The translations under genes were made by a program, and so were the position numbers. Shown here in pieces: positions 26,875 through 31,054 of a stretch of 64,000 nt of DNA. Each line of letters starts with the position of its first letter. Position 1 is the first letter of the stretch. The notes beneath the pieces are model-generated. The model saw only the letters and a program-made list of their open reading frames with translations, was not told where the DNA came from and ran no database searches. The stretch comes from Muribaculum sp. (GTDB lineage: Bacteria; Bacteroidota; Bacteroidia; Bacteroidales; Muribaculaceae), in NCBI GenBank assembly GCA_023666965.1, contig JAMPAZ010000004.1:20346-84345 (forward strand). The letters are read 5' to 3'.

Positions 26875-26908
26875 GTTGTGCTGTTGTAGACGGAATTTTG
26901 TAACTTTG
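26875..26908 (+). promoter_or_regulatory. Promoter of the cytidylyltransferase-flippase-licD cluster
   Basis: GTTGTG (26875-26880) precedes TAACTTTG (26901-26908) by 20 nt, matching the -33/-7 pair. Transcription would begin near 26915, roughly 20 nt before the first ATG. The preceding spacer 26750-26874 shows nothing else. Confidence 0.65.
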
Positions 26909-26934: not shown

Positions 26935-28764
26935 ATGCAAGCAATAATTTTAGCGGCCGGACTCGGGCGCAGATTGGGCGAACTGACATCGGATAACACC
27001 AAATGTATGGTAGAGGTGAACGGAGTTACGCTCATCGACCGTATGTTAGGTCAATTGGTAAGAGCTGATATAAGTCGTGTCGTGATTATCATTGGTTATA
27101 AAGGCGATAAACTGCGCGACTATATAGGCAATCGCTATCCGATGCTGCAGATCGAATATGTCGAAAACGATGTCTATGCATCAACCAACAATATCTATTC
27201 GCTTTGGTTGGCTAAGGATAGGCTTGTGGAGGACGACACCTTGCTTTTGGAGTCTGACATAATATTTGAAGAAGGAATGCTTCAGAAGCTTCTCGACGAC
27301 CCGGATCCCGACGTTGCGCTCGTGGCTAAATATGAACCTTGGATGGACGGGACAATGGTGCGCCTGGACCAGTTGGGCTATATCAGCTCGTTTGTTCCAA
27401 AGTCGGCATTCAACTATGACGAAATAGAACTGTACTACAAGACCGTGAATATATATAAGTTCAGCAAGAACTTTATTTCGTCGTACTACTTGCCGTTTTT
27501 GGAGGCGTACATAAAGGCCATGGGCAATAATGAATACTACGAGCAAGTGCTCCGGGTAGTTACGATGATTGATTCCTGCAATATTAAGGGTCTGCCTGTC
27601 GGAAGCCTCAGATGGTATGAGATTGACGACGTGCAGGATCTACGGATAGCAGAAGTGATTTTTTCTGATGCAGAACATCGGCTGTCGATGTTGCAGAAAA
27701 GTTTCGGCGGTTATTGGAGATATGCGGGACTGAAAGACTTTTGCTATCTTGTCAACCCATACTTTCCTACGGCAAAAATGATAAGTGAGATGCAGGCAAA
27801 CTTTGAGCCGTTGCTTCGTCAATATCCATCCGGTATGGATATAAACACTCTGCTTGCATCTAAATATTTCGGCATACGGCAAAGCTATACTGCGATAGGC
27901 AATGGTGCCGCCGAACTTATAAAGGAGCTTATGACGATAACGGCCTGCAGAGTGGGGGTGACCATCCCTACGTTTGAAGAATATGTCAATCGTATGCCGA
28001 AGGATAATGTTGTGGCGTTTAGACCGGCGAATAGCTCTTTCGCATACTCTGCCAAGGATTTGATTGAATTTTTTGCCGATAAGGAGATTTCTGCATTGCT
28101 TTTAGTCAATCCGGATAATCCATCGGGTAATTTTATTCGTCTGACCAGCGATTTGTCGTTGCTCAACTGGGCTAAAGAGCTTGGAATAAGGCTTATCGTA
28201 GATGAGTCTTTTGTGGACTTTGCTACGGACGGACTACAGTGTTCGCTCCTTGACAATGAACTGCTTGAACGTTTTCCAAATTTGTGCGTGGTGAAGAGCA
28301 TATCCAAGTCATACGGGGTTCCAGGATTGAGATTGGGAGTAGTGGCTTCGTCCGACGTTGACTTAATCAGCGAACTTCGCCACGGATGCTCCATTTGGAA
28401 TATAAATTCCTTTGCCGAATACTATATGCAGATCTTTGGAAAGTACGAGACCGACTATCGGCGAGCTTGTATGACGTTTGCAAAAGTACGCGATAAATTC
28501 TACGACGAGCTGTCGTCATTAGAGTGTCTGAGAGTTATTCCGTCGCAGGCCAACTACTTTCTATGTGAAGTCATGCCTCCGTTTACTGCGCATGGTCTTG
28601 CCCTTAAGCTTCTGACGGATTTCAATATATTGATTAAGGACTGTTCTACAAAGAAGGGTTTCCAGGGAGGTGCACAATATGTTCGTATCGCTGTGCGCGA
28701 TGTCGCCGATAATGATGCAATTGTTTATGCGCTGAGAGCAATAATGAAGCAGCCGGTGTGTTGA
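26935..28764 (+). CDS. Bifunctional LicC-like nucleotidyltransferase / CobD-HisC-like PLP enzyme
   Basis: This 609-residue fusion has two domains. Residues 1-240 are a LicC-like cytidylyltransferase: AIILAAGLGRRLGELT at the start, TKCMVEVNG in place of the usual KP loop, YASTNNIYSLWLAKD, and LLLESDIIF with the metal Asp. Residues 245-609 are a fold-type I PLP enzyme close to threonine-phosphate decarboxylase CobD and HisC: NPDNPSGNF, LIVDESFVDFAT, and PLP Lys in VKSISKSYGVPGLRLG. The second domain could make an amino-alcohol phosphate that the first activates to a CDP derivative. LicD, which transfers such groups, is two genes downstream. PntC-type phosphonate activation is an alternative, but no PEP mutase is nearby. 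Confidence 0.85.
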   Translation: MQAIILAAGLGRRLGELTSDNTKCMVEVNGVTLIDRMLGQLVRADISRVVIIIGYKGDKLRDYIGNRYPMLQIEYVENDVYASTNNIYSLWLAKDRLVEDDTLLLESDIIFEEGMLQKLLDDPDPDVALVAKYEPWMDGTMVRLDQLGYISSFVPKSAFNYDEIELYYKTVNIYKFSKNFISSYYLPFLEAYIKAMGNNEYYEQVLRVVTMIDSCNIKGLPVGSLRWYEIDDVQDLRIAEVIFSDAEHRLSMLQKSFGGYWRYAGLKDFCYLVNPYFPTAKMISEMQANFEPLLRQYPSGMDINTLLASKYFGIRQSYTAIGNGAAELIKELMTITACRVGVTIPTFEEYVNRMPKDNVVAFRPANSSFAYSAKDLIEFFADKEISALLLVNPDNPSGNFIRLTSDLSLLNWAKELGIRLIVDESFVDFATDGLQCSLLDNELLERFPNLCVVKSISKSYGVPGLRLGVVASSDVDLISELRHGCSIWNINSFAEYYMQIFGKYETDYRRACMTFAKVRDKFYDELSSLECLRVIPSQANYFLCEVMPPFTAHGLALKLLTDFNILIKDCSTKKGFQGGAQYVRIAVRDVADNDAIVYALRAIMKQPVC

Positions 28765-28803
28765 TTATAATTAAAGCGGACGGATTTAAAGCAACTTAAA
28801 GTC

Positions 28804-30273
28804 ATGTCATCCGGGGAGAAAGTGGTTTTTGGCACTATCTGGTCGACCATCGATCGGTTTGGTAATATGGCCATACAGTTCGTGGTCAATATGGTGCTTG
28901 CCCATCTTGTATTGCCAGTCGACTTTGGCTACATAGGTGTACTTGCAATATTTATGGCTGTATCACAGGTGTTGATTGACGGTGGTTTTGCATCTGCGCT
29001 AATTCAGAAAAAGTCGCCTTCGCAGACTGACTATTCTACCATATTTTTCTGGAACGTAGGGTTGGCCGTAGGCTTGTATGCAATACTTTTTCTTGTGGCG
29101 CCGCTTGTGGCGTCTTTTTTCCGGTTGCCAATTCTGACCGGAGTACTTCGTCTGTTCGGCATAATGCTTATATTCAGCGCTCTGTCGCAGGTTCATGCAG
29201 TCAGGCTGCGTAAACAGATGGCTTTCCGCACGATAGCCGTAGTCAATGTCTTGTCGTACACAGTGGCGGGTGCAGTAGCCATATATCTCGCGGCAAAAGG
29301 ATTTGGAGTGTGGGCGTTGGTGGCGATGCAGCTGACCAATACCGGCGTAGCGTTTGTGCTCTATTTCATAGTCACCCGTTGGCATCCGAGTCCGGTCTTT
29401 TCGTTGGAGGCTTTTAAGTCGATGTTTAAATTCGGAGGCTATCTCTTGGCTGCCGGATTGCTTCAAGAGATATGTAAGAATATTCCCGGAATTATTATCG
29501 GGCGCAGATTTTCCCCTACGCAAATGGGCTATTATTCACAAGCCAATAAGCTCGACCAAATTAACTCATACGCGGTGCCTCAAGCTCTGGTACAGGCTAT
29601 ATTTCCTTATTATTCACAAATACAGGACGATGCGGAACGCTTGGCGGCTACGTTGCTGCGGTGTATTAGGGTTATCGCATTCTGTATATTTCCGGTATTG
29701 GGTCTGCTGATAGTTATTGCACCTGAACTGATTACGCTTCTTTGGGGTGGCAAATGGCTTCCGGCTTCGCCATATTTTCGTATACTTTGTTGCGGAGGTA
29801 TATTCACATGTCTGCAAAACGTCAACTTTTATGCTGTGGCGGCCAGAGGACAAAGTAAGGACTTGTTCAAGTGGAGCTTTTACAAGTGGGGAATGTTAGG
29901 GCTGCTACTTTTCGGAGGAATGTTTTTGGGAATGGAAGGTATTATGTGGGCTTTCGTGGTCAGCAACGCAAATATTTATGCTGTAAACGCATTTTTAGTG
30001 CATAAACATGTCGGCTTGCATATATGGCGACAGTTCCGTGGTTGGTTGCCAACCGCCATTGCCGCTACTGTGGCTGTGGGCACAGCTTTTTTTGTTGGAA
30101 TGTTGTGCCGCGCAGGGATGCTCGGCGGTGCAAGATTGTCGATGATGGTGGCTGCCTTTATCGTATGCTACGCATGTATTGTTATGCTTTTTAATTTCCG
30201 AGCCGTCAACGATGTTTCGGCCATACTGCAACAATTATTAAACCGAAAGAAAAATGCCGACAATAAAAGATAA
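28804..30273 (+). CDS. Oligosaccharide flippase (PST/Wzx family)
   Basis: This 489-residue inner-membrane protein has about 12-14 hydrophobic helices. The N-terminal motif STIDRFGNMAIQFVVNMVLA and 'LVLPVDFGYIGVLAIF' are typical of polysaccharide transporters that flip undecaprenyl-linked glycans. It is 39 bp after the nucleotidyltransferase fusion and overlaps licD by 20 bp, so the three form one unit. The glycan is unknown, and no glycosyltransferases lie in the cluster. Confidence 0.9.
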   Translation: MSSGEKVVFGTIWSTIDRFGNMAIQFVVNMVLAHLVLPVDFGYIGVLAIFMAVSQVLIDGGFASALIQKKSPSQTDYSTIFFWNVGLAVGLYAILFLVAPLVASFFRLPILTGVLRLFGIMLIFSALSQVHAVRLRKQMAFRTIAVVNVLSYTVAGAVAIYLAAKGFGVWALVAMQLTNTGVAFVLYFIVTRWHPSPVFSLEAFKSMFKFGGYLLAAGLLQEICKNIPGIIIGRRFSPTQMGYYSQANKLDQINSYAVPQALVQAIFPYYSQIQDDAERLAATLLRCIRVIAFCIFPVLGLLIVIAPELITLLWGGKWLPASPYFRILCCGGIFTCLQNVNFYAVAARGQSKDLFKWSFYKWGMLGLLLFGGMFLGMEGIMWAFVVSNANIYAVNAFLVHKHVGLHIWRQFRGWLPTAIAATVAVGTAFFVGMLCRAGMLGGARLSMMVAAFIVCYACIVMLFNFRAVNDVSAILQQLLNRKKNADNKR

Positions 30274-31054
30274 TGCTTATTCACATTTCAATCCGGAGGG
30301 ATCGCCACTGAGACAGCATCAGCTCCGTATGCTCGGGATGCTTGAACAACTCGATGCCATCTGCCGACGACATCGCATACCATATTGGCTTAGTTCAGGA
30401 ACGCTCATCGGCGCGGTCAGGCATGGCGGTTTTATCCCTTGGGACGATGATGTGGACATTGAAATGATGGAGGATGATTATCGAAAACTTTTGGACGTAC
30501 TTGCTGAAGAATTGCATGATGAAGACTTCGCCGTACAGACAACGGCAACTGATCCGGAATTTTTGTTTCCTTTCGCAAAATTCCGTGATATGCATTCCTA
30601 TCTTGAGGAATCCAACGGACTTGATTCGCTTTTTCGTTTTCGAGGATGCTACATTGACATTTTCGTCATATCTCCATCTTCGTCGAAGATGATACACCGG
30701 TTAGGTTGCAAGCTTCTCGGCACAGAGATAAAGTTGCGTGTCAGGCATCCCCGATTGAAATGTGTCAACACAATGTTGCGTACTTTGCTCCATAAAGCGG
30801 TCTTCCCCGCAATGCGTATTGCCAGCCGCATTGGCTCCGGTCGGTGTCTGCGTCACAAAATACCATCTTTTTTCTCCGCAAGCCGCGACTACTCCGACAT
30901 ATTCCCATTATCCGAGGTCAGTTTCGAGGGTCGGAAATTCCCGGCACCCGGAAATGCAGATGCTTATCTCCGCAAAATATATGGAGATTATATGCGCTTG
31001 CCGGATCCCGATAAAATCCAAGTGCACACTACTCACGTAGACCTCGATCTTTAA
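30254..31054 (+). CDS. LicD family phosphotransferase
   Basis: This 266-residue protein has the LicD core RRHRIPYWLSSGTLIGAVRH, GFIPWDDDVDIEMMEDDY (metal-binding DDDVDI) and a C-terminal FPLSEVSFEGRKFPAPGNADAYLRKIYGDY. LicD proteins transfer phosphocholine or a related group from a CDP carrier onto surface glycans. The cytidylyltransferase fusion two genes upstream would supply the activated group. It overlaps the flippase by 20 bp, and its 3' end overlaps convergent meaB by 26 bp. Confidence 0.93.
   Translation: MPTIKDNAYSHFNPEGSPLRQHQLRMLGMLEQLDAICRRHRIPYWLSSGTLIGAVRHGGFIPWDDDVDIEMMEDDYRKLLDVLAEELHDEDFAVQTTATDPEFLFPFAKFRDMHSYLEESNGLDSLFRFRGCYIDIFVISPSSSKMIHRLGCKLLGTEIKLRVRHPRLKCVNTMLRTLLHKAVFPAMRIASRIGSGRCLRHKIPSFFSASRDYSDIFPLSEVSFEGRKFPAPGNADAYLRKIYGDYMRLPDPDKIQVHTTHVDLDL

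Follow-up and report, generated by a model that had tools for sequence, protein, structure and literature searches.

A cytidylyltransferase–PLP enzyme fusion in Muribaculum, its opine-type dehydrogenase partner, and a candidate pathway of surface-glycan decoration

The 64,000-nucleotide stretch of Muribaculum sp. DNA analyzed here (hereafter the window; GenBank assembly GCA_023666965.1, contig JAMPAZ010000004.1, positions 20,346 to 84,345) carries a three-gene unit, headed by a gene that joins a nucleotidyltransferase (NTase) to a pyridoxal phosphate (PLP) enzyme and continued by genes for a flippase and a LicD-type transferase. The source assembly was 2.4 Mb in size, comprised 66 contigs, and was 83% complete. 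The original prediction, made from the window sequence alone, had proposed these genes, their positions and the two-domain fusion, with all of which open reading frames (ORFs), Pfam, and NCBIfam agreed, and the searches of the window genes likewise recovered the flippase and LicD as neighbors of the fusion. The unit comprised:

26935..28764, + strand: NTase–PLP fusion, 609 aa, activities predicted (ORF, Pfam, NCBIfam, invariant positions)
26935..27654, + strand: LicC/PntC-like cytidylyltransferase domain, fusion residues 1-240 (Pfam, alignment to 1jyk and 6pd1)
27667..28761, + strand: PLP domain, fusion residues 245-609, with PLP lysine K458 (nearest: L-serine-phosphate decarboxylase 6oux)
28804..30273, + strand: Wzx/MOP-type glycan flippase, 489 aa (PF13440, Polysacc_synt_3, 6.9e-83)
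30254..31054, + strand: LicD-family phosphotransferase, 266 aa, with a PWDDDVD motif in the translation (PF04991, 3.6e-39)

The fusion and flippase genes were separated by 39 bp, and the LicD gene overlapped that of the flippase by 20 bp. From 439 related fusion loci found, we kept 80, the set behind the counts out of 80 given below. The fusion was conserved near full length across these loci, at 58-77% identity, and its catalytic positions were invariant across 41 aligned fusion rows, which together argue against a chance product.

Within the N-terminal half, Pfam placed NTP_transf_3 at residues 3-133, while residues 1-240 matched both LicC (1jyk, 7e-15) and the PntC domain of T. denticola Tde1415 (6pd1, 2e-12). 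This MobA-like NTase had the GxGxRx(n)K-type signature and catalytic Lys expected of LicC and PntC, and G9, G11, R13, L14, and K23 were invariant in the 41 aligned fusions. Glu104 and Glu196 of PntC are described as lying close to the amine of 2-aminoethylphosphonate (AEP), with a smaller Asp at both positions in LicC (PMC6697681). Window residue E106, also invariant in the aligned fusions, fell on PntC Glu104 and LicC Asp105, and PntC Glu196 fell on window Y202, such that the second amine contact is not common to the fusion in this alignment. The invariant E106 leans the cytidylyltransferase half towards a primary-amine substrate, with the unmatched Glu196 to be set beside it.

The C-terminal half was covered by Aminotran_1_2 (PF00155) at residues 310-595, and its best NCBIfam models were CobD and HisC, both below cut-off (HisC equivalog TIGR01141, 114.9 bits against 276.55). 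Its closest solved relative was SMUL_1544 (6oux), followed by CobD, with HisC more distant, and AEP transaminase is a class V enzyme of another Pfam family. When compared with HisC and AEP transaminases, the domain grouped with the decarboxylases in the free tree (built without FrbH and Cj1436 sequences), in the fold ranking, and at four residue positions, in agreement with the predicted CobD/serine-phosphate-decarboxylase-type C-terminus; HisC or AEP-transaminase identity was rejected, being contradicted by the Pfam class, tree, residues, and fold ranking. The PLP half is thus assigned with moderate confidence, given borderline approximately unbiased (AU) tests, as a putative phospho-amino-acid decarboxylase of the group formed by CobD and serine-phosphate decarboxylases, and conversion of phosphoserine to CDP-ethanolamine would be the best reading of the fusion as a whole. 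Of the amino-alcohol products originally envisaged, phosphoserine and ethanolamine were favored over threonine and aminopropanol for two reasons: the nearest characterized relative decarboxylates serine phosphate, and one phosphonate locus (L115, below) swaps the fusion for machinery of AEP, an isostere of ethanolamine phosphate. A separate observation concerns the fusion of genome G297 (L114 7679-9421), whose PLP domain lacked several otherwise invariant positions and which may be in decay or have altered its function.

An opine-type or imine-reducing dehydrogenase, from either the octopine-dehydrogenase (ODH) or the ornithine-cyclodeaminase/mu-crystallin (OCD) family, was present in 74 of the 80 fusion loci. 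In six (L053, L055, L062, L063, L066, and L075), it was part of the same polypeptide, giving trifunctional chains of ~945 aa composed of NTase, PLP enzyme, and octopine dehydrogenase. In a draw of 149 genomes from the family, matches to the fusion at 1e-20 were found in 35, three of which (G083, G126, and G145) matched only the NTase part and were excluded, leaving 32 fusion genomes from 10 genera, a few of them with the fusion broken across contigs. Strong matches to ODH were found in 16 of these and to OCD in 17 (both in two), so that 31 of the 32 had a dehydrogenase, the exception being G055. None of the 117 family genomes without the fusion had a strong match, and one, G079, had a distant ODH (27% identity); the resulting co-occurrence (Fisher p 3e-31, or 1e-29 with G079 counted) describes an association rather than independent events, since the genomes are related, the draws overlap with the 80 loci, and linkage inflates the counts. 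The dehydrogenase lay on a different contig from the fusion in seven of the 31 genomes (G000, G132, G030, G100, G036, G139, and G136), in six of which its surroundings were inspected. A broader draw of 295 genomes from the order gave 27 matches at 1e-30, comprising 11 fusions (one split into two frames), nine pairs of separate NTase and PLP genes, and seven single genes for one of the two. Outside the window's own family, ODH or OCD was found in six of nine fusion genomes and, in the order draw, in two of 284 genomes without the fusion.

The genome from which the window derives had a single PF02317 gene, situated on another contig (G000:C11:131821-132834, corresponding to L106 9319-10335), and a PF02423 profile search of the same genome gave no match. 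The L106 protein belongs to the octopine/nopaline dehydrogenase family by its score (107.5 bits against a gathering threshold of 30), and its translation contains NPLLH and RYFTED, which supply the His and Arg-x4-Asp that we take to be catalytic in octopine dehydrogenase and CENDH. Motifs resembling NPxLH and RYFxED occurred in 66 of 72 ODH genes, the other six being two short pieces and four genes encoding 384-510 aa. Within the family draw, the L106 dehydrogenase was 71% identical to the unlinked copy in G132 and 45-51% identical to ODHs adjacent to the fusion. The idea that the three-gene unit is self-sufficient was therefore not upheld, because most fusion genomes add an opine-type or imine-reducing dehydrogenase, which here is encoded elsewhere in the genome.

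The two dehydrogenase families stand in for one another, gene for gene, at loci that are otherwise nearly identical. Loci L059 and L079 had different partners despite fusion proteins that were 96% identical. In two metagenome assemblies, L059 (OCD) and L070 (ODH), the DNA was 88% identical as far as a point no more than 10 bp from where the fusion gene ends; beyond the dehydrogenase gene, which differed, 7 kb beginning at the flippase start codon was 95% identical. In a quickly built tree of 81 fusions with many weak forks (41 labeled ODH, 29 OCD), the partner label changed at least 20 times, or 12 times with only forks ≥95, against shuffled averages of 22.5 and 17.2, respectively. Two characterized opine dehydrogenases are described as handling D or R centers, as in N-(1-D-carboxyethyl)-L-norvaline and (R)-pseudopaline. 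Mu-crystallin-type enzymes, for their part, yield L (S) centers. From these centers comes the tentative and rather doubtful idea that gut Bacteroidales decorate their surface glycans in a modular, opine-like way, in which ODH would set an (R)-N-(1-carboxyalkyl) center and OCD an (S) center or a different oxo acid, a single-gene swap within a capsule locus otherwise almost unchanged thereby creating a new antigen through one stereocenter.

Clues to what the dehydrogenase acts on came from a few other loci. In genome G375 (L115), one of two order-draw genomes with OCD and no fusion, genes for a phosphoenolpyruvate (PEP) mutase, a thiamine pyrophosphate enzyme (by context, phosphonopyruvate decarboxylase), and a fusion of PntC with AEP transaminase (PntC-AEPT) were followed by an OCD gene overlapping the last by 4 bp; its product was 50% identical to the OCD of L018. 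The other, G384, had the OCD gene at a contig end beside LicD genes. AEP is the C–P isostere of ethanolamine phosphate, and the presence of one dehydrogenase family behind donor pathways for both points, by analogy, at the 2-aminoethyl amine as the probable target of the partner dehydrogenase. In another phylum, a plasmid of Rhizobium sp. 007 (L160 3270-8165) had genes for an NTase, a CDP-alcohol phosphotransferase, a PLP enzyme, an octopine dehydrogenase, and a methyltransferase side by side.

On balance, we favor the view that the window encodes the donor-synthesis and transfer functions of a pathway that decorates surface glycans, with a 2-oxo acid contributed by an octopine-type dehydrogenase encoded elsewhere in the genome. 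We observed the gene content, homology, invariant positions, co-occurrence, fusion, and replacement, and infer each chemical step, the oxo acid, the step order, and the acceptor. The fusion would convert CTP and O-phospho-L-serine to CDP-ethanolamine, with decarboxylation either before or after cytidylylation, for which precedents differ: Cj1436 is reported to convert serine phosphate to ethanolamine phosphate (PMC11800397), and FrbH to cytidylylate 2-amino-4-phosphonobutyrate first and then decarboxylate it (PMC8976061, PMC6697681). The L106 dehydrogenase would couple the amine of ethanolamine reductively to a 2-oxo acid, pyruvate being the likeliest, yielding an N-(1-carboxyalkyl)ethanolamine-phosphate group that LicD would move onto a glycan, probably lipid-linked, and the flippase would export the decorated glycan. 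The pathway looks widespread. N-[(R)-1-carboxyethyl]ethanolamine phosphate, a group of the kind predicted, belongs to a Proteus O-antigen. For enterobacterial polysaccharides, and hence in a different phylum, it appears in the glossary and a figure legend of a review on K. pneumoniae capsular and P. mirabilis O-polysaccharides, where the bearer species is unspecified (PMC9630907). Among the matches listed in a literature search, we found no account of biosynthetic genes for N-carboxyethyl ethanolamine phosphate and, from the titles and abstract openings of the matches listed, recognized no prior description of the fusion with an opine dehydrogenase, subscription literature falling mostly outside this scope. 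A P. mirabilis dehydrogenase (L157, 177 bits with our own ODH profile) was considered as the source of the Proteus carboxyethyl group and rejected, having no fusion, LicD, or OCD profile match within 21 kb, and a Serratia homolog lay in a siderophore-like cluster.

Several observations weigh against the proposed pathway. Most of the co-occurrence consists of genes that are physically linked, and joint transfer could account for part of it; the L106 dehydrogenase sits alone among unrelated-looking genes. None of the nine order-draw genomes with unfused NTase and PLP genes matched ODH or OCD, and four fusion genomes had neither that we found (G055, G431, G248, and G297, the PLP domain of the last looking degenerate). 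The phosphonate swap at L115 and the Rhizobium arrangement are one case each. As to the PLP half, the CobD equivalog TIGR01140 scored 146.3 bits against a cut-off of 290.55, and AU tests, from which four of 44 rows were omitted (Bactfus_G297, Bactfus_L087, L016_other, and HisC_RCC1099), did not firmly reject grouping the fusions together with HisC (p 0.050) or together with only CobD (p 0.076). Moreover, the 41 aligned fusions had Lys568 where CobD and serine-phosphate decarboxylase have Arg, so substrate recognition may differ. LicD was matched in 51, the flippase in 50, and both in 36 of the 80 loci, and among the 61 loci whose downstream sequence reached 7 kb or more, 23 had both genes downstream and 22 neither, counts made with our own profiles, which divergent copies may escape. 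LicD and the flippase were thus rarer in the loci than the dehydrogenase, which makes the dehydrogenase the more constant partner and the transfer step less constant. The contiguous fusion–flippase–LicD order that had been sought elsewhere did recur, in four of 80 loci; commoner was an order with the dehydrogenase inserted behind the fusion (10 of 80).

The absence of a dehydrogenase from the window unit, together with the genomes that combine the fusion and a LicD-like gene with no ODH or OCD found (G055, G431, and G248), would suit a unit that makes plain ethanolamine (or aminopropanol) phosphate for transfer by LicD, whose family members move phospho-amino-alcohols, with the dehydrogenase of this genome serving some other process. 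We consider this unlikely, if worth keeping in mind, against a dehydrogenase in 31 of 32 family fusion genomes, seven of the 31 with it on another contig, and the existence of trifunctional chains. In another reading, judged improbable, the dehydrogenase makes a different opine-like glycan substituent (carboxyethyl-lysine or alanopine, for example) and its presence in clusters with the fusion is incidental. Such substituents are described in O-antigens (PMC10609480), and recombination exchanges glycan clusters in blocks, but this would leave unexplained the polypeptide fusion in six of 80 loci, the unlinked yet co-occurring copies, the OCD directly behind PntC-AEPT, and the Rhizobium case.

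A PLP half acting as a transaminase (for instance, forming serinol phosphate as Cj1437) or as HisC would share the same fold and draws on the borderline AU result for the HisC union; it appears quite improbable, since the domain sides with the decarboxylases in the free tree, in the fold ranking, and at four residue positions and, for HisC, the genome has its own copy over cut-off (L002, 325 bits). The phosphonate route, in which the fusion would activate AEP, had been thought less likely from the outset and seems highly improbable. Although the N-terminal domain is related to PntC and has the PntC-type Glu, and the phosphonate version at L115 carries a same-family dehydrogenase, the C-terminus is PF00155 rather than the class V family of AEP transaminase, near-full-length PEP-mutase matches were restricted to L115 and one Bradyrhizobium record among the loci compared, and PF13714 (PEP mutase) gave only a match under the family cut-off in the 83% complete genome.

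The favored pathway, from phosphoserine to a carboxyalkylated ethanolamine phosphate, resembles several known systems in part. FrbH, of FR-900098 synthesis, has the same order of NTase and PLP decarboxylase, a likeness at the level of architecture, and acts on the C–P analog of phosphoserine; it serves a phosphonate antibiotic, whereas here the NTase–PLP fusion comes with no phosphonate gene found (PEP mutase as above) but with a flippase, LicD, and an opine-type dehydrogenase. SMUL_1544, from norcobamide synthesis, is an L-serine-O-phosphate decarboxylase, and its Sulfurospirillum relative is annotated as such. Both it and Cj1436 (compared by description, not sequence) are stand-alone enzymes in a cobamide or capsule-amide context, unlike the fused window enzyme. 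The cytidylyltransferase domain of Tde1415 PntC-AEPT has Glu104 in common with the fusion but not Glu196, and the PntC-AEPT gene at L115 encodes a class V C-terminus in place of PF00155, which, with PEP mutase under cut-off, sets the window system apart from the Tde1415 type. LicC, to which the window cytidylyltransferase is related, acts on choline phosphate, and LicC-like and LicD genes occur together here as in the Lic pathway; LicA choline kinase and LicB importer were absent from the three unit genes, the part of the genome searched for them. The partner enzymes fall in the families of octopine dehydrogenase/CENDH and of mu-crystallin/ornithine cyclodeaminase, whose known members use amino acids or cyclic imines as substrates, and a role for them in glycan decoration is proposed here. 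In view of these memberships and of the fusions without a dehydrogenase, the system is filed as a nucleotidyl-activated phospho-amino-alcohol decoration variant and kept apart from Lic, Pnt, and Frb.

Related fusions were also seen in other settings. A Gloeothece verrucosa plasmid (L142 3227-6689) had genes for the fusion, an S-adenosylmethionine-dependent methyltransferase, and LicD consecutively, perhaps to decorate a glycan with methylated ethanolamine or choline phosphate, and the methyltransferase behind the fusion fits a slot for amine tailoring. In Fusobacterium vincentii (L107 5291-11137), a fusion with 48% identity across the PLP domain lay between formyltransferase-family and DUF1015 genes near LicD, perhaps a further form of amine tailoring. 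The NTase and PLP enzyme, fused or as neighbors, adjoined a CDP-alcohol phosphotransferase in five loci, recognized by annotation (L108, with the NTase part cut short, and L159), PF01066 (L119), or a gene of similar size (L120 and L121), which suggests that phosphatidylethanolamine-like lipids may be made directly from phosphoserine. Finally, Priestia megaterium pBM700 (L110 6508-10906) carried an NTase–PLP fusion with AAC(3)-type acyltransferase and ATP-grasp genes and a plasmid-borne dxr, with no PEP mutase match within the 17 kb examined; this looks like a cluster for a fosfoxacin-like DXR inhibitor, with dxr for self-resistance.

In the window, the three-gene unit is isolated, with dapF/dapL to its left and meaB to its right, both on the opposite strand. 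Its GC content (0.445-0.474) was slightly under that of the left flank and similar to most of the right flank, and composition made no case for recent insertion. One candidate promoter element was noted:

26901..26908, + strand: weak candidate -7 promoter element TAACTTTG, 26 bp upstream of the fusion ATG

The element matches TAnnTTTG, which we take to be the Bacteroidetes -7 type motif, and sequence inspection revealed no good -33 partner upstream of the fusion. Phage carriage of the fusion was rejected, as none of 17 matching phage records covered 80% of it, and viral contigs scanned with the dehydrogenase as query, instead of the fusion, contained no relative.

If correct, the proposed pathway would provide a gene route for the N-carboxyethyl ethanolamine phosphate substituent of glycans, would give bacteria a direct way from phosphoserine to CDP-ethanolamine that needs no imported choline or ethanolamine, and would place opine chemistry in the surface glycans of gut bacteria. 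The gene-for-gene exchange between two dehydrogenase families suggests that selection acts on chemical details of the decoration, details that phages, antibodies, and lectins could recognize.

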